Source: Lacibacter sp. H407 (GTDB taxonomy: Bacteria > Bacteroidota > Bacteroidia > Chitinophagales > Chitinophagaceae). From it: DNA of 64,000 nucleotides. Of this stretch, positions 51,321-60,740 are shown in pieces (within the stretch, counting starts at the first letter, position 1; each line of letters begins with the position of its first letter). The stretch covers positions 1,736,001-1,800,000 of the forward strand of contig NZ_JBBKTU010000001.1 of assembly GCF_037892605.1 (NCBI RefSeq), in the 5' to 3' direction. A model generated the notes under the pieces. That model searched no databases. It worked only from the letters and a program-made list of their open reading frames with translations, and was not told the origin of the DNA. A program made the translations under genes and the position numbers.

Positions 51321-51352
51321 AAAGAGTCGCAGCAATGCGACTCTTTGTTTTT
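51321..51352 (+). terminator. terminator of the redox cluster
   Basis: AAAGAGTCGC (51321-51330) / GCGACTCTTT (51337-51346) is a perfect 10-bp stem followed by GTTTTT. It lies between convergent units. Confidence 0.85.
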
Positions 51353-51353
51353 G

Positions 51354-51425
51354 TAGCCTCGACAGGAATCGAACCTGTATCTGGGGCTTCGGAGGCCCTT
51401 ATACTATCCATTGTACTACGAGGCC
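51354..51425 (-). tRNA. tRNA-Arg(CCG)
   Basis: The minus strand folds as a tRNA: 7-bp acceptor GGCCTCG / CGAGGCT (with G1-U72), T8-A9, a D-arm, the anticodon stem GGGC / GCCC enclosing CTCCGAA with anticodon CCG, and the T-arm ACAGG-TTCGATT-CCTGT. The discriminator is A. CCA is not encoded, as is usual in this phylum. Confidence 0.93.
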
Positions 51426-51478: not shown

Positions 51479-52063
51479 TTATTTGATCAATCCACCTGCA
51501 TTACCAGCAAATATTTTTACGGCAATGGCCAGCAATATTACGCCGAAAAATTTTCGCACAGCAAGTAAACCTGCAGGACCTAGCAATTTCTCGATCCACT
51601 TTAAAGATTTGAGGACAAAGAATACCAACACCAGGTTCAAAAGTATTGCTACAAGAATCACTAAATCAGAATAGTTGGCACCCAGCGACATAATGGTAGT
51701 AAGCGTTCCGCTTCCGGCAATAATAGGGAAGGCGATCGGTACCACTGTTCCGCTCTTTGCATTTTTATCACTTTTGAAAAACTCATGCCCCAATACCATT
51801 TCCAAGCCCAACACAAAGATCACAATTGAACCGGCCACAGCAAACGAACGACGATCGACACCCAGCATCTGCAAAAACGATTCGCCTACAAATAAAAACA
51901 GGATCATCAATGCACCGGAGATGAGTGTGGCTTTGAATTCCCGGATAGCACCCATCTTATCCTTCATGGCAATCAGCAGAGGAATAGACCCGATGATATC
52001 AATAACGGCAAATAAAGTAAACGAAACAGTAAGCAGCTGGCTGAGGCTGAAGTCGAAGTTCAT
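51479..52063 (-). CDS. MarC-family membrane protein
   Basis: The 194-residue protein has six membrane segments. The MarC signature is visible at the start (FTLFAVIDIIGSIPLLIAM) and centre (VPIAFPIIAGSGTLTTIMSLGANYS), with PAGLLAVRKFFGVILLAIAVKIF at the end. The family function is uncertain despite the historical name. I start at 52063 (NFDFSLSQLLTVSF); the open frame to 52114 adds 17 basic residues in front of the first helix. It is a single gene after the tRNA. Confidence 0.88.
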   Translation of the reverse strand: MNFDFSLSQLLTVSFTLFAVIDIIGSIPLLIAMKDKMGAIREFKATLISGALMILFLFVGESFLQMLGVDRRSFAVAGSIVIFVLGLEMVLGHEFFKSDKNAKSGTVVPIAFPIIAGSGTLTTIMSLGANYSDLVILVAILLNLVLVFFVLKSLKWIEKLLGPAGLLAVRKFFGVILLAIAVKIFAGNAGGLIK

Positions 52064-52170
52064 AGCGATTGTTTCGGCAAAGATAACTTTTCTTTTAAGC
52101 CTGCATTTATGCAACGATTAGGCTGGTGAGTCACCTGTTTTCTTCAAGGTTAACTCATCGGCAAAAGGGA

Positions 52171-52773
52171 TTACTTAAAGCTTGGTTTATGTTGCTCCGA
52201 TGTGCTTTGTACATTATGTAATACGTCATGTTCAAACCGATCATCTTGCAAGTATAATTTTACAACACAACCATATTGCAGTTTAAATACATTGAATGAA
52301 TCGATCAATGCAGTATTGGTAAGATGAGAAAGAATGCTCCGTAGCACACCACCATGCGAAACGATGGCAGCACTTTCTTTTTTCTCCGCAATGTTTTGAA
52401 AAATGGTTGTGGTGCGTGCAAACAGATCGAGATAGCTTTCGCCGCCGGGTATCCGCACATTCACAAAATCATTCATCCAAGGCATTACAATTTCTTGAGG
52501 AATATCATCCCACTTGCGAAGCTCCCATTCGCCACAGTTGATCTCTTTCAAATCGTCGTGAAAAAAAATGTTGTGTGAAGGAAATAAATGTTGTGCCAAT
52601 TTACTGCAACGTTGTAACGGACTTGCATAAACCGATTTTATACTTGCAGGTAAACATTGTTTAATCAGTGCCGCTTCATCATAAAAACTTTCTGTTACAT
52701 CAAGATCAGCCTGGCCGTAACAGGTCCCTTTTTCAACAGCAGGTGTTGTATGTCGGATGAGATATATTTCCAT
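52171..52773 (-). CDS. cobC: alpha-ribazole phosphatase (CobC-like)
   Basis: The 200-residue histidine phosphatase has the catalytic LIRHTTPAVEKGTCYGQ (RHG-type His at residue 8), SPLQRC, GEWELRKWDD with the second catalytic acid, and VSHGGVLRSIL. The CYGQADLDV sequence is typical of CobC, which removes the phosphate from alpha-ribazole-5'-phosphate in B12 nucleotide-loop assembly. It is the last gene of the B12 operon, 26 bases after cobS. Confidence 0.88.
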   Translation of the reverse strand: MEIYLIRHTTPAVEKGTCYGQADLDVTESFYDEAALIKQCLPASIKSVYASPLQRCSKLAQHLFPSHNIFFHDDLKEINCGEWELRKWDDIPQEIVMPWMNDFVNVRIPGGESYLDLFARTTTIFQNIAEKKESAAIVSHGGVLRSILSHLTNTALIDSFNVFKLQYGCVVKLYLQDDRFEHDVLHNVQSTSEQHKPSFK

Positions 52774-52799
52774 GTACGATTCAGACTTGATTAAAACGT

Positions 52800-53573
52800 T
52801 TATAAAAAGTTATATTCTATTTTCCAAAATACCAACAGGTTCAGGTAGAACAAAACTTCGGCTACCTGTTGGGTAGCGCCTAAGCAATCGCCCGTGTAGC
52901 CACCGATCCATTTATGAAAATACCGACGTAAAAAGAATGTACCGAGCAATGGGAGAATGAGCACATATAAAATTTCAATACGTTGAAAAAGCAATAGTGG
53001 TGCTAATCCAAATACCACTGCCGGAATAATTTCTTTTGCAGTGATCGATTTAGCCAGTGGCTTTGCTTTTGCATCATCATTCTCCCGTACGTATTTGCTC
53101 GTTGCAACAATAAGTACTGCACACAAACGGGAAAAGCTATGTGCTGCCAATAACACGATCCACATCAGGCTGAATGGAATAGAACTCAATGATGTATATT
53201 TCAACAACAGGATCAGGATCATGCCAATGGCACCGTATGCGCCAACCCTGCTGTCTTTCATAATGTCGAGGATCTTTTGTTTGGTCCATCCTCCACCAAA
53301 CGCATCACATACATCTGCAAATCCATCTTCATGAAACGCACCAGTGGTCAAAACCCCTGCTATCATTGATAATAAAATGGCAACAGGAGTACCTACATAA
53401 AAATCTGTGCCGATGAACACCAGAGCACAAATGCCGCCAACGATCCAACCCATGAGTGGAAAGTAACGTGTGGCTTTGTTGAGATATTCCGGATCATGTG
53501 TTACCCATTTCGGGCAAGGGATCCTTGTATAAAACATCAATGCTGTAAAAAATATTTCAATCTGCTTCCTCAA
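52800..53573 (-). CDS. cobS: cobalamin synthase (adenosylcobinamide-GDP ribazoletransferase)
   Basis: The 257-residue membrane enzyme joins AdoCbi-GDP and alpha-ribazole. The family start FFTALMFYTRIPCP is followed by GVLTTGAFHEDGFADVCDAFGGG (metal-binding acidic motif), the DSRVGAYGAIGM motif and GGYTGDCLGATQQVAEVLFYL near the end. It starts with TTG at 53573; this codon overlaps the stop of the upstream gene (TTGA), so translation is coupled. No better ATG exists. Six or more hydrophobic segments are present. Confidence 0.92.
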   Translation of the reverse strand: MRKQIEIFFTALMFYTRIPCPKWVTHDPEYLNKATRYFPLMGWIVGGICALVFIGTDFYVGTPVAILLSMIAGVLTTGAFHEDGFADVCDAFGGGWTKQKILDIMKDSRVGAYGAIGMILILLLKYTSLSSIPFSLMWIVLLAAHSFSRLCAVLIVATSKYVRENDDAKAKPLAKSITAKEIIPAVVFGLAPLLLFQRIEILYVLILPLLGTFFLRRYFHKWIGGYTGDCLGATQQVAEVLFYLNLLVFWKIEYNFL

Positions 53574-53860
53574 AACTTATTGATTTTGCTGTTGAAAATA
53601 TTATCTGCTGTTTTCTTACTGTGGAAACGGGTATTGATGATGAGTTCATCAGCGCCTGCTTCTTCAGCTGTAGTTTTTAATTGTGCAATGAGTTGAAGGA
53701 TCTGTTCCGTGGTTCCATTCACCACTGTTTCAAATGGAGTAACAGTATATTCCATACCCGATTGCTGAATAACAGCAATGGCCTTGTCAACAATACTGTA
53801 GGTTGGATCAACGATATTGACCGGTACAACCTGAATACCGGCATTCATTATTTTTTCCAT
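53570..53860 (-). CDS. thiamine-binding-fold protein (MTH1187/DUF77) inside the B12 operon
   Basis: The 96-residue protein matches the MTH1187/YkoF-like thiamine-binding family: AGIQVVPVNI, the IVDKAIAVIQQSGMEYTVTPFETVVNG block and AEEAGADELIINTRFHSKK. These ferredoxin-like oligomers bind thiamine-type ligands in the few studied cases. It lies between cobT (2 bases before) and cobS (4-base overlap). Its place among nucleotide-loop genes suggests it might bind a B12 precursor such as dimethylbenzimidazole (inference). Confidence 0.85.
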   Translation of the reverse strand: MEKIMNAGIQVVPVNIVDPTYSIVDKAIAVIQQSGMEYTVTPFETVVNGTTEQILQLIAQLKTTAEEAGADELIINTRFHSKKTADNIFNSKINKF

Positions 53861-53862
53861 AC

Positions 53863-54882
53863 TTATTCTTTACCGGATACACCGGCGCTTTCAAAACTAG
53901 CCATTTCATTTAAAAACTGAACAGCGCTTTGTAATAAAGGGATCGCTAATGCTGCCCCTGTTCCTTCTCCCAGTCGCATACCCAATTGTAAGATTGGTTT
54001 TGCATTGAGATGTTCCAGCATTTTACGATGTCCGTTCTCATCAGAGCAATGTGCAAATACACAATGATCGGTAATTGTTTGATCGTATTGTTTTGCTACC
54101 AGTAAAGCAGCGGTTGCAATAAAACCATCCACAACAATGACCATGTTCAGTTCAGCTGCTTTGTGATAAGCGCCCACCATCATTGCAATTTCAAATCCAC
54201 CGATACGACAAAGCAATTGATGCGGCGTAATGTCATAGCGATTCAATTCATGTAAACGACTGACATCTTCTAATGTAACAAGTTTGCGTTGGAGTTGTTC
54301 ATCAGTAGAACCCGTTCCTCTTCCCACACATTCACTCAATGGAAGATTTAGTATGTGATGCATGATAAGTGATGCAGAGGAAGTATTACCAATGCCCATT
54401 TCACCAAAGCCGATTGTATTACAACCATCATCAAATAAATCTTGTACAATACTGCGACCTTTTTCAATCGCCGCATTTACTTCATCAATACTCATTGCAT
54501 TGAATTCACTGTAATCGGCTGTACTATGATTGATCTTTGCATGCACAATTGGTAACGAAGCATCAAAATCAACATTCACACCTGCATCAACCACTGTTAA
54601 ACCAATGTTGTGTTGTTTGGTGAATACATTAATAGCTGCACCGCCATTTACAAAATTCAAAACCATTTGTGCGGTTACTGCCTGCGGATAAGGATTTACT
54701 TTTCCTGTGGCAGCAATACCATGATCGCCTGCAAACACAACAATATGCGGTTTGCTGATAGCAGGTGATAAACTGTTTTGAATTACACCGATCTTCAATG
54801 CCAGTTCCTCCAGCATACCTAACGCACCAAGTGGCTTGGTTTTATTGTTGATCTTGTGTTGCAGTTGTTCTTTGAGTGTCAT
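53863..54882 (-). CDS. cobT: nicotinate-nucleotide-dimethylbenzimidazole phosphoribosyltransferase
   Basis: The 339-residue enzyme makes alpha-ribazole-phosphate from NaMN and a lower-ligand base. Family motifs: KPLGALGMLEELALKIG at the start, VVFAGDHGI, VTAQMVLNFVNGGAAINVF, GFGEMGIGNTSSAS, and CVGRGTGSTDEQLQRK, with the catalytic Glu in the final RLGEGTGAALAI. Length is normal. It overlaps the upstream PP-loop gene by 4 bases (ATGA). Confidence 0.95.
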   Translation of the reverse strand: MTLKEQLQHKINNKTKPLGALGMLEELALKIGVIQNSLSPAISKPHIVVFAGDHGIAATGKVNPYPQAVTAQMVLNFVNGGAAINVFTKQHNIGLTVVDAGVNVDFDASLPIVHAKINHSTADYSEFNAMSIDEVNAAIEKGRSIVQDLFDDGCNTIGFGEMGIGNTSSASLIMHHILNLPLSECVGRGTGSTDEQLQRKLVTLEDVSRLHELNRYDITPHQLLCRIGGFEIAMMVGAYHKAAELNMVIVVDGFIATAALLVAKQYDQTITDHCVFAHCSDENGHRKMLEHLNAKPILQLGMRLGEGTGAALAIPLLQSAVQFLNEMASFESAGVSGKE

Positions 54883-55604
54883 GCGTTGTTTGTTTGTAAA
54901 AGAAGGTCACAAAACCAGAAACCTTTTGTGCCCACATCTTTAATAGGAGTGGGGTGATCACTGGTTTTTATTTCTAAAGCTTTGTATGTTTTTTCACCGG
55001 TAGTAACAGGTATTGGTTGTTTAAAGACAGGGCCACTGAAACAGAAAGAATGAAACTCTCCATTCTCTCCACATGGATCAACAGTTGATGGAAGTTCGTT
55101 GATAAATTGCTGATCGATGGTTCTTCCAACCCAGCTTTCATCTAAGTAACCATCGTTGATGCAGCAAAGAACAGATTGAAAACCTTTCGCTACAAAATCA
55201 TTGATCATCCATTGTGTATCGGTTTTCCAGATAGGGAAGACACAATGCATATCGAGTTCGTTCATTTTTCTTTCACGGTAAGCACGCAGGTCTTCTAAAA
55301 ATAAATCACCATACAACACATGATTGATGCCTTCTGCTTTTGCCTGCAGCAAAATGCTTTTCATCTGTTGTTCATACTCTACATTGCTCGCTTCGTACAC
55401 ATACGCTTTCAATAGCGGAATACCGATAGATGCAGCTTGTGCTTCGATCAACTCTTCTCTTACTCCATGCATGGATAAGCGTTTGTAATTACCGTTAAAT
55501 GTGCTGAGTAAATACTTTACATCATACACGCCTTCCTGCAACACTTTATGCAATGCATAGCTGCTGTCTTTTCCTCCGCTCCAACAAAATATCGATGGGA
55601 TCAT
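54879..55604 (-). CDS. Dph6-like PP-loop ATP pyrophosphatase in the B12 operon
   Basis: The 241-residue protein begins with IFCWSGGKDSSYALHK, the PP-loop (SGGKDS) that adenylates substrates. It continues with LLSTFNGNYKRLSMHGV, YGDLFLEDLRAYRERKM and GKGFWFCD-like terminal residues typical of the diphthine-ammonia ligase (Dph6/MJ0570) group. Bacteria lack diphthamide, so the substrate must differ. Position between cobU and cobT suggests an amidation or amide-hydrolysis step on corrinoid precursors (inference). It is separated from cobU by 80 bases of degenerate TGAGT repeats. Confidence 0.85.
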   Translation of the reverse strand: MIPSIFCWSGGKDSSYALHKVLQEGVYDVKYLLSTFNGNYKRLSMHGVREELIEAQAASIGIPLLKAYVYEASNVEYEQQMKSILLQAKAEGINHVLYGDLFLEDLRAYRERKMNELDMHCVFPIWKTDTQWMINDFVAKGFQSVLCCINDGYLDESWVGRTIDQQFINELPSTVDPCGENGEFHSFCFSGPVFKQPIPVTTGEKTYKALEIKTSDHPTPIKDVGTKGFWFCDLLLQTNNA

Positions 55605-55684
55605 ATGATGAGTGGTGAATAATGAGTGATGAGTTGTAGGTGGTGAGTGCGATTGTTTTTTACTTGCTATTCACTACTTACTAC
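55605..55684. repeat. degenerate TGAGT/ACTCA-type intergenic repeat, copy A
   Basis: The 80-base gap holds short words of the type ATGAGTGGTGAATAATGAGTG on one side and ATTCACTACTTACTACTTAC on the other, an imperfect inverted repeat. Similar sequence occurs at 58344-58400 and inside the riboswitch. Confidence 0.55.
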
Positions 55685-56188
55685 TTACTTTATCTTGACA
55701 GCAATCCCGCTTACCATTAATACTGCTGTATGTGCATATGCAGCAATGTATTGGTTGGCCCATCCCTGCAGATCGGTGAACTTACGACCGATCTCTGTAT
55801 CAGCATGCACACCCATTCCAATTTCGTTACTGATGATGATAAACGTGCCGGGCTTTGTACACAACGCATCAATTTCTTTTTTCAGCAATGCAAGTGATGC
55901 TTCCACATCGTTCTTTGTATCCACAAAAAAATTGGTGAGCCACAATGTTACACAATCAATAACGCAAACACGGTTCACAATGGGTAGTGTACTTACACTG
56001 CGTTGTTCTTCCATATTCGTCCAACGTTCATCCCGATCGTTCTGATGCCGCTTCACCCGTTTCTCAAAATCATCATCCCACACTTTGGCAGTAGCTACAT
56101 ACACAGGACTGTCACTTAGTGATAAAGCCATCTCCTGTGCATACTTACTCTTACCACTTCTTGCACCACCTGTTATAAAAATGATCAT
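55685..56188 (-). CDS. cobU: adenosylcobinamide kinase/guanylyltransferase
   Basis: The 167-residue bifunctional enzyme phosphorylates AdoCbi and transfers GMP. The P-loop FITGGARSGKSKYAQ is at the N-terminus, followed by VYVATAKVWDDDFEKRVKRHQNDRDERW (with the guanylylated-His region), DCVTLWLTNFF and IISNEIGMGVHADTEIGRKF. It overlaps the upstream CWC-DUF5522 gene by 4 bases. Together with cobT, cobS and cobC it gives a nucleotide-loop assembly pathway from salvaged cobinamide. Confidence 0.95.
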   Translation of the reverse strand: MIIFITGGARSGKSKYAQEMALSLSDSPVYVATAKVWDDDFEKRVKRHQNDRDERWTNMEEQRSVSTLPIVNRVCVIDCVTLWLTNFFVDTKNDVEASLALLKKEIDALCTKPGTFIIISNEIGMGVHADTEIGRKFTDLQGWANQYIAAYAHTAVLMVSGIAVKIK

Positions 56189-56565
56189 GCTGTTTGTTTT
56201 TTAAAGCCGTACGGACAATACCTGCATCCGCTCCTGCAACAATATCCCCTGCGTAAATGATGCCACGCAGTGAACACAAAGTTTGTATTCTCCATATAGT
56301 AGTCAATCCCTTCTATTAATTGTTTTGCAGGTGCAAGATCTTTCGCTATGTTATGATTCAATGCTTTTTCAACCGTCATCTCAGCAACATACACATCGAT
56401 TTTTTCTTTGGTTGCGTTGTGCAGACATTCCGGGCACATGCAATTGACGACAGGGTCAGGAGTAAATAGCGGAGGATATTGATTGCACCAGCAACTGTTG
56501 CCGTTATCTTCTGTACTGCATCCGAAAGCAATACCACATCTGCTGCAATTCTTTTCTTTCGCCAT
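56185..56565 (-). CDS. Cys-rich CWC domain fused to DUF5522
   Basis: The 126-residue protein has an N-terminal CWC-type domain (NCSRCGIAFGCS, SCWCNQYP, CMCPECL, residues 6-50) with paired Cys ligands for metal. A C-terminal DUF5522 module (HHLRRGYCCRSGCRYCPYGF, about 102-121) has a second Cys cluster. I recall DUF5522 as a short conserved domain of unknown function shared with eukaryotes. A zinc- or iron-binding role fits. It sits 1 base after the paralogous CWC gene and overlaps cobU by 4 bases, so it belongs to the B12 operon. Confidence 0.8.
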   Translation of the reverse strand: MAKEKNCSRCGIAFGCSTEDNGNSCWCNQYPPLFTPDPVVNCMCPECLHNATKEKIDVYVAEMTVEKALNHNIAKDLAPAKQLIEGIDYYMENTNFVFTAWHHLRRGYCCRSGCRYCPYGFKKQTA

Positions 56566-56566
56566 A

Positions 56567-56791
56567 TCAACGATTGCTGTATAGATCTTTCTGTTCTACA
56601 AATAATGTGTATCTGCTCTTCAATTGCTGCAGACAGTTGCGGCATAAACAATCGGCAAATTGTTTTGTGATGAATGCTTCTTCTTCCACGCTCAACTCAA
56701 TACCGTAGCATTGGCAATTGGTAACATCGCCCACTTTACATTCAAAACCTTGACCACAACGTGGACAGTTTTTTTGTTCATGCTTACACAT
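56567..56791 (-). CDS. small Cys-rich CWC-family protein
   Basis: The 74-residue protein has four Cys pairs: KNCPRCGQGFEC, TNCQCYG, and DCLCRNCLQQL, the pattern of the Cys-rich CWC family. It is paralogous to the first half of the next gene. It overlaps the BtuF-like gene by 8 bases and is followed by the CWC-DUF5522 gene after 1 base. Function unknown; metal binding is likely. It is cytosolic, with no signal peptide. Confidence 0.82.
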   Translation of the reverse strand: MCKHEQKNCPRCGQGFECKVGDVTNCQCYGIELSVEEEAFITKQFADCLCRNCLQQLKSRYTLFVEQKDLYSNR

Positions 56792-57722
56792 GCTCTAACC
56801 TGGTTGAGAAGTGAAAGTATTTTGTTTGCAGGTGCTTGGGTACACGAAACAAGGAAGGATGAAATAACGCCGCTAATAATTCAATACCATCAACTAATGT
56901 TGAAGCAGATGGTTGTGTAAACAGATCGTAATCACAAATGAACACGGCGTTATTCTTTACAGCTTCCAGTTGTTGCCATTCTGGTTTATCAGTTAAGAGA
57001 TGCAGTTCTTCTCTGCTGCGATCCACATGGAAACCACAAGGAGCGATCACTAATATCTCCGGATTATACTTTACAATTTTTTCCCAGCTGGTAACGATGC
57101 TGTCGCCACCGGGATTACTTAACATATCAATACCGCCTGCCTGTGCCACTTGGAAAGGGATCCAATGGCCGCAATTATAAACCGGTGCGATCCATTCCAT
57201 CAGCAACACACGTTTCATCGGCATTTGATGGCGACGGAGTTTTTCAAGAATATGCGTTGTTCTTTTTTGCAAACCTGCGAGATAATGATAGGCTGCCGAT
57301 TCATGGCCCAACGCTGTAGCAATAGTTACGGCCGTATAATACACATCGTCGAGTGTTTGCGGCGTCAGCGTGATAAGCGTAGGTTGTTTTTCAAGGTTCG
57401 CAACGGCTGCCGCTGTGCAGGCGGTATCGATCTGGCATACTTCACATACATCCTGTGTAAAGATCACATCGGGTTGTATGTTTTGTAATACATCTTCATC
57501 CACATAATATAAACTCTTGCCTTGCGCTTTGCTGGCAGAAAATATTTTATCGATCTCTTCACTGCTGTAATTTTTTCCTTCCATTACACAACGAACAACT
57601 TTTTGTTTTTCGCTTAATGCTGTAGCAGAACATTCAAACGTAACGCCATGGAGCAGATGTTGCAAACCCATGTCGTAGATCATTTGCGTAGCGGCTGGTA
57701 AAAAGGAGCATGCTTTCATCAT
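56784..57722 (-). CDS. BtuF-like cobalamin/corrinoid-binding protein
   Basis: The 312-residue protein matches the periplasmic-binding-protein fold of the BtuF/FecB type: SFLPAATQMIYDMGLQHLLHGVTFEC, KSLYYVDEDVLQNIQPDVIFTQ, VLLMEWIAPVYNCGHWIPFQVAQAGG and WEKIVKYNPEILVIAPCG. The N-terminus (MMKACSFLPAATQ) has no clear signal peptide, so it may be cytosolic or use an atypical route; that is odd for a transport binding protein. No BtuCD permease/ATPase is next to it. It lies between DUF6580 and the CWC gene in the B12 operon. Confidence 0.85.
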   Translation of the reverse strand: MMKACSFLPAATQMIYDMGLQHLLHGVTFECSATALSEKQKVVRCVMEGKNYSSEEIDKIFSASKAQGKSLYYVDEDVLQNIQPDVIFTQDVCEVCQIDTACTAAAVANLEKQPTLITLTPQTLDDVYYTAVTIATALGHESAAYHYLAGLQKRTTHILEKLRRHQMPMKRVLLMEWIAPVYNCGHWIPFQVAQAGGIDMLSNPGGDSIVTSWEKIVKYNPEILVIAPCGFHVDRSREELHLLTDKPEWQQLEAVKNNAVFICDYDLFTQPSASTLVDGIELLAALFHPSLFRVPKHLQTKYFHFSTRLEHV

Positions 57723-57750
57723 GAGTTGAATAAGGTTAAATGGTTAATGG

Positions 57751-58341
57751 TTATGCTATCTGGAAGGAAGTGTTTTTAGCTTTCATCCATTCAAATGCAC
57801 CAAACATGATACCACTGTAAACCAATGTGCCGATCAGAAAGTTTTTCATGTATGGTGCACCTTGCGCATAGCATTTAATAAGACTTGCAAAACTGTGATC
57901 CATGGTTTGGCCGGTAGTAATATCAGTACATCCAAAAAAGAACACACCAAAATCAACAACCAGCCAGTAAATCAATGTTGCAGCAACGCCGGTGAACACT
58001 ACCGATTTTACTGATACTTTTTTCAGTAATAATCTTCCTAATAAAACAATCAACACAAAACCACCATACACCCAATACCAACTACCATACATAATGCCAT
58101 ACTGCCCGTCATAAACAAAAATGTTTATGATGAGATCGCTTGCAAGTAAAGTGAGTAATGGAAAACCAAATGCTTTCCAGTTTTTACTGAAATATGCTGC
58201 ACCAAATAAACCCATAGCGCCGATGGGTGTGAAATTACTCAATGGTCCAAGCTGTGCAGCATTGGGAATACGTAAGGCTGCTACTGCAACCATAATAATG
58301 GCCAGTACTGCAAAACGGGGATTGATTTTTTGTATTGACAT
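57751..58341 (-). CDS. DUF6580 membrane protein, candidate B12-related transporter
   Basis: The 196-residue protein has about five to six hydrophobic helices (FAVLAIIMVAVAALRI, LSNFTPIGAMGLFGAAYF, GFPLLTLLASDLIINIF, WVYGGFVLIVLLGRLLL, SVVFTGVAATLIYWLVVDFGVFFF, FLIGTLVYSGIMFGAFEW). The NFTPIGAMGLFG and SDLIIN motifs match DUF6580, which I recall as related to ECF-type S components. Its place between btuB and the BtuF-like gene under the cobalamin riboswitch makes a corrinoid or precursor uptake role likely (inference). Confidence 0.8.
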   Translation of the reverse strand: MSIQKINPRFAVLAIIMVAVAALRIPNAAQLGPLSNFTPIGAMGLFGAAYFSKNWKAFGFPLLTLLASDLIINIFVYDGQYGIMYGSWYWVYGGFVLIVLLGRLLLKKVSVKSVVFTGVAATLIYWLVVDFGVFFFGCTDITTGQTMDHSFASLIKCYAQGAPYMKNFLIGTLVYSGIMFGAFEWMKAKNTSFQIA

Positions 58342-58343
58342 TT

Positions 58344-58400
58344 GTAATGATTGATGAATGATGAGTAATGAGTGGGTTCAACTGATCACTCATTACTCAT
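58344..58400. repeat. TGAGT/ACTCA intergenic repeat, copy B (perfect 15-bp inverted repeat)
   Basis: GATGAGTAATGAGTG and CACTCATTACTCATC flank a 14-base spacer, all between btuB and DUF6580. The stem could stop or pause transcription or protect the mRNA end. It is a cleaner version of copies at 55605 and 60530. Confidence 0.65.
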
Positions 58401-58409
58401 CACTGATTA

Positions 58410-60335
58410 TTAAAATTGAAAGCTTACGCCTCCTGTTACATTAAACTTGCGGCTGTTATAACCCGGCACATCATAATACTCCTGATCGGTAACGTTACGC
58501 AGATCAACAAATACACGCAGATTTTTTGTTGCCTGGTAGCCGGTATATAGATCGATCGTGTAATAAGCAGGCATTTGCGTTGGTCCCGGATCATATGCAC
58601 CCTTTAATCTTGTACTAATGAAACGGAACGAAGGCATAACAGTTAATCCTTTAATTGGCTCAAGTGTAAGTGCACTGTTGAAGCTGAAGTTTGGACGACG
58701 GAATAGATTCTTCACTTTCACATTGTCGTTTTTTCCTTCACCATCAATGTAGGTGAAGTTATTTGTCCAGTTGCCGATCTTTCCAAGACCAATGCTGCTT
58801 TCTACTTCAAAACCATAATCATGTTGCTCGTCACGGTTAATGTACTGACTTGCGTAGGTTGTCATGTCAGTATAGAAAATGATGAGATTCTTAATATCAC
58901 GTTTGAATGCTACAAAACGGATAGAGTTCTTTCTATCTGCACTAAATGATTGTACACCTATTTCATAATTCTGCGTTGCTTCAGGTTTCAGTTCTTTATT
59001 ACCGTATTCGCTATACAATTGGTAGAGCGATGGTATTTTGTAACCTGATGAAATGTTTACAAATACTCTTGTTTTATCATCAATGTTGTATGAAGGGTTG
59101 AAGGTATAAGTTGCATTTGTTCCATAAATGCTGTGGCTGTTAATACGGAAACCTGCTTCCACATTAAAACCTGCAAGTTCGGTTGCAAGCAAAGAGGCAT
59201 AGAACGAAAAGTTATTTGCCTTGGCTGAATCGCCTAAAGCGGACTCATACGGACCATACACACTAATGCTTTTATAAGATTGAGTTGTGTTCTGAGCTAA
59301 ATTTTGAACACCAGCCACCAACGATAACTGATCGATGAAGCGGTAGTTACCGCTTAATTCAGTAATACTGCTGTTGCCTTCGTACGAACCTCTTGAATAT
59401 TTTGCAAAACCACCAACACTTGCACTGTCATCTAAATAAACTCTTGTATTGGTGAGGAAGTTTTGTGATAAAGTAAGGCTCAACTTTTTATTGTTGTACA
59501 GGAATGAAAGGCCGTTGTTCCTGTTCTTCTGCGTTACATTATTATCAGCATCATCATTATATGCGCCGGCATCAATGCCATTGACATATTGACCGAAATT
59601 ACTAAAGCCTTTCACTGAAAAGTTTTTGCTGAGATCGTAGCGAAGGTTGGCAACAAAGTTGTGTTGCTTGAATCCATCATTATCAAAATTCTTTGTGCCG
59701 GTTGTATCCTGTGCAGAAGAAAAGCCTTTGCTGTCAGTAAAATTATAATTCACATTATAAGAAAAGGCGTTCAACTTGCCGCCAACACCTGCATTTGCAC
59801 GCAATGTATTGTAACTGCCATAGCTAAGCAAACCATTTACTTCTGCCTTTTTGCGTCCTGCTTTTTTTGTGATGATATTGATCACACCGGCAACCGCATC
59901 GCTACCCCACATGGTGCTTTGTGCGCCTTTTAAAATCTCAATGCGTTCTACCATGCCTGTGCTGATATGATTCAGATCAAATGCATTGTTCACTTGTGAT
60001 GCATCGCCAACAGGAACACCATCTATCAGGATCAATACATTACCACTTACAGCACCACGGAAATAAACATCCTGGTTGGTGCCTAATGTATTGTTGGCGC
60101 CGTTGATGAATACACTTGCTTGCTGATTAATGATCTCGGAAACGGTACGACCTGCATTGCGTTGAATGGTTGCCTGATCGATCACTGTTACTACCTTACC
60201 TGTTGTACGTTGTTTCTGTTCAATGCGGTTGGCAGTTACAAATACTTCGCCTAATGATTTTGCGGTACTGTCCTGGGCATTTAGTTGACTGCTGATGAAT
60301 AATCCGGCAGCCACTACAAATAAATTCTTTTTCAT
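58410..60335 (-). CDS. btuB: cobalamin TonB-dependent receptor
   Basis: The 641-residue receptor starts at 60335 (KKNLFVVAAGLFISSQLNAQ signal). The open frame to 60518 runs into the riboswitch and is rejected. The TonB box-like SLGEVFVTANRIEQ, a plug domain (FRGAVSGNVLILIDGVPVGD, MWGSDAVAGVINIITKKAG) and a barrel ending in FNVTGGVSFQF follow. It lacks the carboxypeptidase-like N-terminal domain of the other receptors in the window, like enterobacterial BtuB. Direct control by the cobalamin riboswitch supports B12 or another corrinoid as substrate. Confidence 0.93.
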   Translation of the reverse strand: MKKNLFVVAAGLFISSQLNAQDSTAKSLGEVFVTANRIEQKQRTTGKVVTVIDQATIQRNAGRTVSEIINQQASVFINGANNTLGTNQDVYFRGAVSGNVLILIDGVPVGDASQVNNAFDLNHISTGMVERIEILKGAQSTMWGSDAVAGVINIITKKAGRKKAEVNGLLSYGSYNTLRANAGVGGKLNAFSYNVNYNFTDSKGFSSAQDTTGTKNFDNDGFKQHNFVANLRYDLSKNFSVKGFSNFGQYVNGIDAGAYNDDADNNVTQKNRNNGLSFLYNNKKLSLTLSQNFLTNTRVYLDDSASVGGFAKYSRGSYEGNSSITELSGNYRFIDQLSLVAGVQNLAQNTTQSYKSISVYGPYESALGDSAKANNFSFYASLLATELAGFNVEAGFRINSHSIYGTNATYTFNPSYNIDDKTRVFVNISSGYKIPSLYQLYSEYGNKELKPEATQNYEIGVQSFSADRKNSIRFVAFKRDIKNLIIFYTDMTTYASQYINRDEQHDYGFEVESSIGLGKIGNWTNNFTYIDGEGKNDNVKVKNLFRRPNFSFNSALTLEPIKGLTVMPSFRFISTRLKGAYDPGPTQMPAYYTIDLYTGYQATKNLRVFVDLRNVTDQEYYDVPGYNSRKFNVTGGVSFQF

Positions 60336-60380
60336 GTGTTGAAAAAAGGGTTTGTTGTGACTGCTTTCAGAAAAAGAAAT

Positions 60381-60475
60381 AGAAAATATAAAAGCTAACG
60401 AGCCGTTACACCTCCTGCCTTTCACCCGAAAGCAAATGATTAATGAAATAGTATCGGCAGGTCTTCTGGCTCGTT
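60381..60475 (-). promoter_or_regulatory. predicted expression platform of the cobalamin riboswitch
   Basis: Sequence in the aptamer 3' part (AACGAGCC, minus strand, 60475-60468) is perfectly complementary to GGCTCGTT (60404-60397). Nested inside, CCTGCC of the B12 box (60461-60456) can pair with GGCAGG (60419-60414), and CTTTC with GAAAG. The outer stem is followed by AGCTTTTATATTTTC, so the structure could be a terminator that competes with the aptamer. Pairing is by eye, and the direction of the switch is not settled. Confidence 0.5.
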
Positions 60476-60706
60476 CGCTGCTGAGCACCTTCCCGTTCGT
60501 GTGGCAAACACCTTTCATGAACAGTGGTATGTAGAATCAGCAGGTGAGTGGAGGGTTGTGAATAGTGAGTGGGATTCCCTTAAGAGAATCATTCACCATT
60601 GACGATTGACCATTCACAATTAGAACTTACAGCTACGGGGATAGCGCCGGATTTGCACCGGACTTCCCTTTTAATCCCGACTATGAACATCGGAAACCGC
60701 TACGGG
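60449..60706 (-). ncRNA. cobalamin riboswitch
   Basis: The minus strand has the conserved elements in order: GCTCCCGTAGCGG and GGTTTCCGATG near the 5' end, AAAAGGGAAGTCCGGTGCAA (core), CCGGCGCTATCCCCGTAGCTGTAAG, a degenerate GCCACACG region, then CCAGAAGACCTGCCGATAC (B12 box). The peripheral region between CTGTAAG (60627) and GCCACACG is longer than usual and contains TGAGT-type repeat sequence (about 60530-60620). It precedes btuB and thus heads the eleven-gene B12 operon. Family knowledge: it lowers expression when adenosylcobalamin or methylcobalamin is bound. Confidence 0.93.
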
Positions 60707-60708
60707 AG

Positions 60709-60740
60709 CAAAAGTAGGGGAGCCGTTGTGCAGTTGCAAA
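60709..60740 (-). promoter_or_regulatory. promoter of the B12 operon
   Basis: On the minus strand TTTG (60740-60737), 20 bases, TACTTTTG (60716-60709) is an exact Bacteroidota consensus. Transcription would start near 60702, at the 5' edge of the riboswitch. Confidence 0.8.

Follow-up and report, generated by a model that had tools for sequence, protein, structure and literature searches.

A candidate inner-membrane corrinoid importer, DUF6580, in a riboswitch-controlled B12 salvage operon of Lacibacter

In Lacibacter sp. H407 (Chitinophagaceae, Bacteroidota), a 64,000-nucleotide stretch of contig NZ_JBBKTU010000001.1 (positions 1,736,001 to 1,800,000; called here, over its whole length, the window) carries a cobalamin riboswitch followed by a corrinoid uptake-and-salvage operon (Table 1). 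From comparison with related genomes, we propose that one gene of this operon, encoding a DUF6580 membrane protein, specifies an inner-membrane corrinoid importer that would replace the ATP-binding cassette (ABC) permease BtuCD and deliver its substrate to a cytosolic BtuF-like receptor, and we put the probability of this reading at about 0.68. The first-pass annotation had regarded the five accessory genes of the operon as a likely extension of the B12 pathway, a frame that is wrong for DUF6580, which looks like a transporter and not like a biosynthetic step.

The proposal is carried foremost by a phyletic pattern. FecCD (PF01032), the family of BtuC, has no match in the whole window genome at E 0.001. 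Across 148 Bacteroidota genomes, the same set being used for every family search, DUF6580 (scored over the Pfam cut-off) and full-length FecCD (>150 bits, our own cut) occur in 59 and 96 genomes, respectively, with 51 genomes having DUF6580 only, 88 FecCD only, 8 both, and 1 neither (Fisher p 6e-30). When a single genome was drawn from each of the 83 genera (200 draws), the same four classes had means of 35.2, 42.0, 5.6, and 0.2; excluding families f21 and f19 gave 33, 87, 5, and 1. Cobalamin riboswitches are present in 145 of the 148 genomes; DUF6580 is found in 50 of the 51 riboswitch genomes without full-length FecCD and in 8 of the 94 with it. The listed riboswitches cover 114 of the 148 genomes, and all counts of genes near one (within 10 kb) are lower bounds: FecCD lies this close in 35 genomes, none of which has DUF6580, while DUF6580 lies this close in 15 genomes from 7 families, one of which also has FecCD, there not riboswitch-linked. 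In none of the 8 genomes with both proteins is FecCD near a listed riboswitch. Within the window's own family, DUF6580 is missing from locus L056, where a separate B12 box instead precedes genes for BtuF and FecCD.

Such exclusion could also arise as a by-product of lineage, if some clades had lost their FecCD siderophore permeases and happened to carry DUF6580. Most of the 33 families are uniform (9 with DUF6580 only, 17 with FecCD only), as that explanation would have it, and the statistics were made without a gain-and-loss correction on a species tree. However, seven families hold both proteins, and family f21, where DUF6580 is missing from 1 of 18 genomes (G081), switches in the expected direction, its FecCD gene lying between two riboswitches. 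The absence of DUF6580 from all 35 genomes with riboswitch-near FecCD likewise speaks against lineage alone, which would moreover leave the presence of DUF6580 in B12 operons, described next, unexplained. We therefore regard the by-product explanation as improbable.

Gene neighbourhoods point in the same direction as the importer reading. Among loci from named genomes retrieved by DUF6580 alone (the best 80 of 405, 8 of the 80 being shared with the other loci compared here), a B12 gene or box is chained to DUF6580 in 78, and FecCD occurs in the stretch in none (0/80); in two Runella genomes, the B12 box runs directly into DUF6580-DUF71. A DUF5074 gene, belonging to what we take to be the BtuG-like family, is present in 20 of these 80 loci. 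In the phylum sample, 15 of 64 DUF6580 places lie near a listed riboswitch, against a chance probability of roughly 0.006 for any one place, and 7 further places of the 64 are linked by a B12 box or btuB, as read by eye. Phylogenetically, the tree built from 68 DUF6580 proteins puts the window copy in a clade of 28 (support 100/99), 26 of them B12-linked and one a Gemmataceae protein, with a few other B12-linked copies placed elsewhere. Among named species, Lacibacter luteus has the closest DUF6580 (L134, 90% identity); its locus is L041 (one genome) and holds the same operon without an MTH1187 match. As a side observation, the Gemmataceae locus (L191, Planctomycetota, LR594586.1) combines a B12 box with the co-directional genes DUF6580-cobU-btuF-DUF71-DUF5522-cobT-cobS-cobC, which likely reflects a transfer between phyla, provided that the contig is correctly assigned. 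A role for DUF6580 in importing the lower ligand for CobT was considered and is disfavoured, because 53 of the 59 DUF6580 genomes are without CobT.

Structurally, the predicted model of DUF6580 is confident (predicted local distance difference test, pLDDT, 91.8; predicted template-modelling score, pTM, 0.88). Its nine best PDB fold matches include entries of RibU, PanT, and ThiT, three S-component systems of energy-coupling factor (ECF) transporters (for PanT entry 6zg3, we assume chain C to be the S-component), together with methane monooxygenase subunits. The modelled fold is thus compatible with an S-component-like importer, which is not proof of one. No cysteine is invariant; a Cys stands at position 157 in 53 of 58 rows of one alignment but in 14 of 27 of the other.

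For the BtuF-like protein, the simplest reading is a cytosolic corrinoid receptor, as suggested by its N-terminus (MKACSFLPAATQMIYDMGL in the window). Among 72 BtuF-like rows (L196 being cut), all 71 that were judged begin at or near the mature domain, compared with a hydrophobic leader ending in Cys in 9 of 9 periplasmic-type BtuFs, both by eye. The window protein has no PDB relative by sequence.

Several points weigh against DUF6580 as the importer. All readings here are comparative inference, and transport by DUF6580 is a prediction. Many DUF6580 genes, including most copies outside the window's clade, lie away from B12 genes: at 40 further places that were fetched, a B12 box or btuB is in the stretch at 8; the common copy in family f21 has a YceI gene next to it, in surroundings that are conserved (L213-L230); and a second, unlinked copy in the window genome (G000:C1:3109621-3110139), which groups with family copies in an unlinked clade, could be the importer or have some other role. 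Because the 80 named loci are those most similar to the window protein, they favour the operon clade. On the permease side, FecCD permeases also serve siderophores and haem, FecCD alone was scored, with the importer families BtuM, ECF modules, and the major facilitator superfamily outside the search, and 7 of the 41 CobT loci compared below are without DUF6580 in the stretch, with FecCD in just one of them. In addition, seven 'FecCD-less' genomes hold partial FecCD matches of 30-47 bits, above the Pfam cut-off, and counting these in raises genomes with both proteins to 15 and leaves 44 with DUF6580 only. As to the receptor, signal peptides were judged without a prediction program, and in L041 an in-frame upstream Met would add a partly hydrophobic stretch. 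As to the fold, Foldseek of the model against the PDB gave no match at E 0.001, the top match is a methane monooxygenase subunit, and the S-component rows are weak (prob 0.94 for RibU, 0.84 for PanT, and 0.57 for ThiT; E 0.34-1.1; TM-scores 0.44-0.52); the best 50 of 228 fold matches do not include BtuM. By sequence, a profile of 58 DUF6580 proteins had no PDB match at E up to 10, a result that speaks to BtuM provided that the searched PDB copy holds its chain, whose crystal structure is reported in the accessible part of PMC6072759.

The weakness of the fold match (the best membrane-protein candidates have E 0.16 to 1.1), the lack of an invariant cobalt-ligating Cys, and the many unlinked copies would also suit a membrane protein with an accessory or sensing role in B12 uptake, with another, unrecognised protein as the real importer. 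We hold this to be unlikely, since near-complete exclusion of DUF6580 and FecCD over families and genera, together with the swap at L056, is what a substitute would predict.

The second accessory protein with a clear B12 association is the Dph6-like ATPase, which on motif evidence is a member of the published DUF71-B12 subgroup: its CGENGEFH motif agrees with the ENGEF/YH criterion (as opposed to EGGE/DXE in Dph6), and a loose search found an ENGEF/YH-type match in 62 of 67 DUF71 proteins, including 45 of the 46 in-operon ones. DUF71 occurs in 32 of the 41 CobT loci, and 15 of its 40 phylum places are near a listed riboswitch. Its link to B12 salvage is not undescribed, as had been claimed, but was published in 2012 (PMC3541065), the accessible part of which defines DUF71-B12 by this motif, reports its clustering with B12 genes, and proposes that it replaces CbiZ. 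Under that published hypothesis, pseudo-B12 would be hydrolysed to cobyric acid and re-used through CbiB, and the motif and clustering do place the window protein in the subgroup for which this role was proposed. However, CbiB (PF03186) has no match in the whole window genome at E 0.001, and in the phylum sample DUF71 occurs in 38 genomes and CbiB in 28 with an overlap of 0 (CbiZ itself was not searched), so that the idea is disfavoured in Bacteroidota. Moreover, CobT is absent along with CbiB from 12 of the 15 genomes whose DUF71 is riboswitch-linked, and cobyric acid, hardly usable there, would be pointless to produce; we consider CbiZ replacement very improbable. We favour instead, as the most likely role for DUF71-B12, an ATP-dependent repair of an amide or a trapping modification.

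Beyond these two proteins, the operon itself is the ordinary corrinoid uptake-and-salvage operon of those Chitinophagaceae that have CobT, because its content and order recur over 41 loci. Of the family's 294 genomes, 44 encode CobT (23 of 101 genera), and the loci compared are the window and 40 of the 43 other CobT genomes. Around cobT, a B12 box and btuB are each found in 37 loci, cobU in 36, DUF6580 in 34, CWC in 27, a btuF-like gene in 26, MTH1187 in 2, and FecCD in 1, with stable gene order. Three loci (L063, L065, and L068) have btuB, cobT, cobS, and cobC, with cobU and DUF6580 not in the stretch; these are incomplete salvage sets, and their kinase must be encoded elsewhere or be absent.

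Table 1 Features of the operon region in the window
Feature	Coordinates	Strand	Basis
Promoter-like match TTG-N20-TACTTTTG, Bacteroidota type	60709-60739	minus	pattern scan; predicted
Cobalamin riboswitch aptamer RF00174	60439-60716	minus	covariance model, 80.6 bits (gathering score 31.5)
btuB-like TonB-dependent receptor	58410-60335	minus	best NCBIfam TIGR01779, below equivalog cut-off
DUF6580 (PF20221) membrane protein, candidate inner-membrane corrinoid importer	57751-58341	minus	196 aa
BtuF-like Peripla_BP_2 protein, no visible signal peptide	56784-57722	minus	PF01497 62.6 bits
Cys-rich CWC protein	56567-56791	minus	family match
CWC-DUF5522 fusion protein	56185-56565	minus	family match
cobU	55685-56188	minus	CobU 175.5 bits; NF004469 151 bits (cut-off 161)
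DUF71-B12 ATP pyrophosphatase (PF01902), Dph6-like	54879-55604	minus	CGENGEFH motif
cobT	53863-54882	minus	TIGR03160 above cut-off
MTH1187/Thiamine_BP protein, between cobT and cobS	53570-53860	minus	family match
cobS	52800-53573	minus	family match
cobC, alpha-ribazole phosphatase	52171-52773	minus	TIGR03162 160.6 bits (cut-off 162.9)
MarC-family membrane protein, conserved downstream gene	51479-52063	minus	after cobC

In the window, one cobalamin riboswitch precedes eleven same-strand genes, as first annotated, and family searches confirmed the gene families named there, six with B12 functions and five accessory. The riboswitch is the single RF00174 match in the whole 4.87 Mb genome by covariance-model scan. 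For btuB, the equivalog models TIGR01779 (223 bits) and NF007926 (197 bits) are the top NCBIfam matches, both under cut-off, and its start is the ATG at 60335, the longest-open-reading-frame ATG at 60518 falling within the riboswitch. The operon encodes no adenosyltransferase, CbiB, or BtuCD, again in line with that annotation; for CbiB and FecCD the absence of a match extends to the whole genome, and a PduO-type adenosyltransferase is encoded elsewhere in it. The tight packing with overlaps of 4-8 bases that had been described applies to four junctions (btuF/CWC 8 bases; CWC-DUF5522/cobU, DUF71/cobT, and MTH1187/cobS 4 each), whereas at the remaining six the genes are 1 to 80 bases apart, DUF6580 being separated from its two neighbours by 68 and 28 bases.

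As to the single promoter of the first-pass annotation, a promoter-like TTG-N20-TACTTTTG match, following the consensus that we assume for Bacteroidota, sits on the front edge of the riboswitch, and the two-part pattern has 2 occurrences in 9.5 kb of minus strand, the second inside btuF (57665); downstream, however, MarC may have a promoter of its own. A sigma-70 scan of the region was uninformative (16 matches, fewer than the mean of 26.9 in shuffles), and the riboswitch leader has a fold z of -1.7, from which no terminator was called. MarC is probably a twelfth member of the operon, because it lies within the cobT cluster in 29 of the 41 CobT loci and also, in two genomes lacking CobT altogether, downstream of btuB-CWC (L113) and of btuB-DUF71 (L090). 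It may nevertheless be transcribed separately, from a promoter-like TATCTTTG at 52085 that immediately precedes it. After MarC come a tRNA-Arg(CCG) (51353-51425, minus strand) and then an 11-pair hairpin with an adjoining T run (51321-51346, scored on the plus strand), likely the end of transcription units.

The first-pass annotation had also judged all five accessory genes to be probable parts of B12 physiology; by the test that it named, co-occurrence with cobalamin riboswitches, this is clearly supported for DUF6580 and DUF71 and in part for CWC and DUF5522, but not for MTH1187. Eight Cys are invariant in 19 of 19 aligned CWC rows, which suggests that CWC binds metal. The frequency of CWC in the family's CobT loci is not matched in the phylum, where a listed riboswitch is near 4 of 41 places, other copies lying in unrelated neighbourhoods; CWC as a phylum-wide B12 marker is thus unsupported. 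By analogy, the Sulfurospirillum CWC gene SMUL_1567, which the accessible part of PMC7755780 places in a corrinoid cluster with an expression ratio raised like that of its neighbours, may count as independent support for a CWC-corrinoid link.

Full CWC-DUF5522 fusions were found in the window, in same-genus loci L041, L048, and L055, in genus g12 (L074, L084, L129-L131), and in L136, L137, and L161; the AlphaFold model of the window fusion is unusable (pLDDT 49.3). DUF5522 was rejected as a general B12 domain, with 9 of 46 places near a listed riboswitch and stand-alone copies behind another gene: five in the family (L006, L018, L019, L020, and L028) sit after a gene beginning 'MGQKKL..', which we take to be trmB. 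The window genome matches DUF5522 once more at G000:C1:1075383-1075514, and in L003, L005, L007, and L016 (family f22), DUF5522 forms the N-terminus of 344-370 aa open reading frames with a secreted-looking C-terminal part, which reads as an odd fusion or a run-together frame.

From its position between cobT and cobS in both the window and L068, and as the sole PF01910 match in the window genome, the MTH1187 protein could be imagined to bind dimethylbenzimidazole or alpha-ribazole for CobT/CobS. This is improbable as well, given that MTH1187 was found in 2 of 41 CobT loci (by a two-sequence profile, which diverged copies could escape) and has no match at that place in the five other same-genus loci compared (L041, L048, L055, L063, and L072). 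A general B12 role for MTH1187 was likewise rejected, since the window's own copy is the only one of 47 to lie near a listed riboswitch, and its restriction to 2 of 41 CobT loci makes it a local insertion.

Functionally, we envisage a route in which B12 would switch the operon off through the riboswitch, BtuB would carry corrinoids over the outer membrane, and DUF6580 would carry them over the inner membrane in place of BtuCD, to be received in the cytosol, and not in the periplasm, by the BtuF-like protein without a signal peptide. CobU, CobT, CobS, and CobC would then give cobinamide or foreign cobamides a rebuilt lower ligand, with adenosylation by the PduO enzyme encoded elsewhere. DUF71-B12 would perform an ATP-dependent, CbiB-independent step on imported corrinoids, most likely either restoring a side-chain amide lost to hydrolysis or modifying the corrinoid so that it stays trapped in the cell, and the CWC proteins would probably do metal or thiol chemistry on the corrinoid, with MTH1187 an accidental or very local addition. 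More tentatively, and at somewhat less than even odds, DUF6580 may be the first of a new family of stand-alone inner-membrane corrinoid importers, unrelated to BtuCD or BtuM as far as sequence comparison can detect, which would serve a large part of Bacteroidota and have passed to at least one planctomycete. With the cytosolic BtuF-like receptor and the ATP-using DUF71-B12, it would form a route of transport followed by trapping, whose binding protein and energy-using step lie behind the membrane and not, respectively, in front of it and within it.

The accessible parts of two papers acknowledge a gap that bears on this proposal, namely how corrinoids cross the inner membrane of BtuB-bearing bacteria without BtuCDF: many B12-auxotrophic Gram-negatives with BtuB lack BtuCDF (PMC6072759), and about 10% of B12-importing organisms are without BtuFCD (PMC2667541). 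With its exclusive phyletic pattern, DUF6580 is a clear candidate for this gap. A literature search, mostly without subscription papers, found none naming DUF6580 or DUF5522, an earlier mention under another name being possible; an exact-phrase search for alternative B12 transporters returned nothing, and PMC11109136, on the S-component fold, leaves DUF6580 unmentioned. What is new here is that DUF6580 probably stands in for BtuCD, and that the evidence speaks against DUF71 as a replacement of CbiZ in Bacteroidota.

Compared with known systems, the window operon resembles the BtuB-BtuF-BtuCD system of E. coli and the BtuG loci of gut Bacteroides (the latter as described in the accessible part of PMC6143338) in its riboswitch-controlled btuB and BtuF-family protein, and differs in having no FecCD permease and a BtuF-like protein without a signal peptide. 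Its Dph6-like protein shares with the DUF71-B12 subgroup, as far as the accessible part of PMC3541065 describes it, the ENGEF/YH motif and the clustering with B12 uptake genes, yet none of the 38 DUF71 genomes has a CbiB match, CobT too is missing in 12 of the 15 riboswitch-linked cases, and DUF71 is often beside DUF6580 rather than BtuCDF. A Cys-rich CWC gene among corrinoid genes recalls the Sulfurospirillum cluster (PMC7755780, accessible part), a likeness by family name; SMUL_1567 lies in a biosynthesis cluster of another phylum. The closest functional parallel for DUF6580 would be BtuM, which the accessible part of PMC6072759 describes as a stand-alone S-component-like B12 transporter of Proteobacteria of about 22 kDa with Cys80. 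Unlike BtuM, DUF6580 is without a PDB sequence match or an invariant Cys80-like cysteine and belongs to Bacteroidota, not Proteobacteria; like BtuM, it is small (196 aa), has no adjoining ABC module, and is proposed to substitute for BtuCDF in Gram-negatives that have BtuB.

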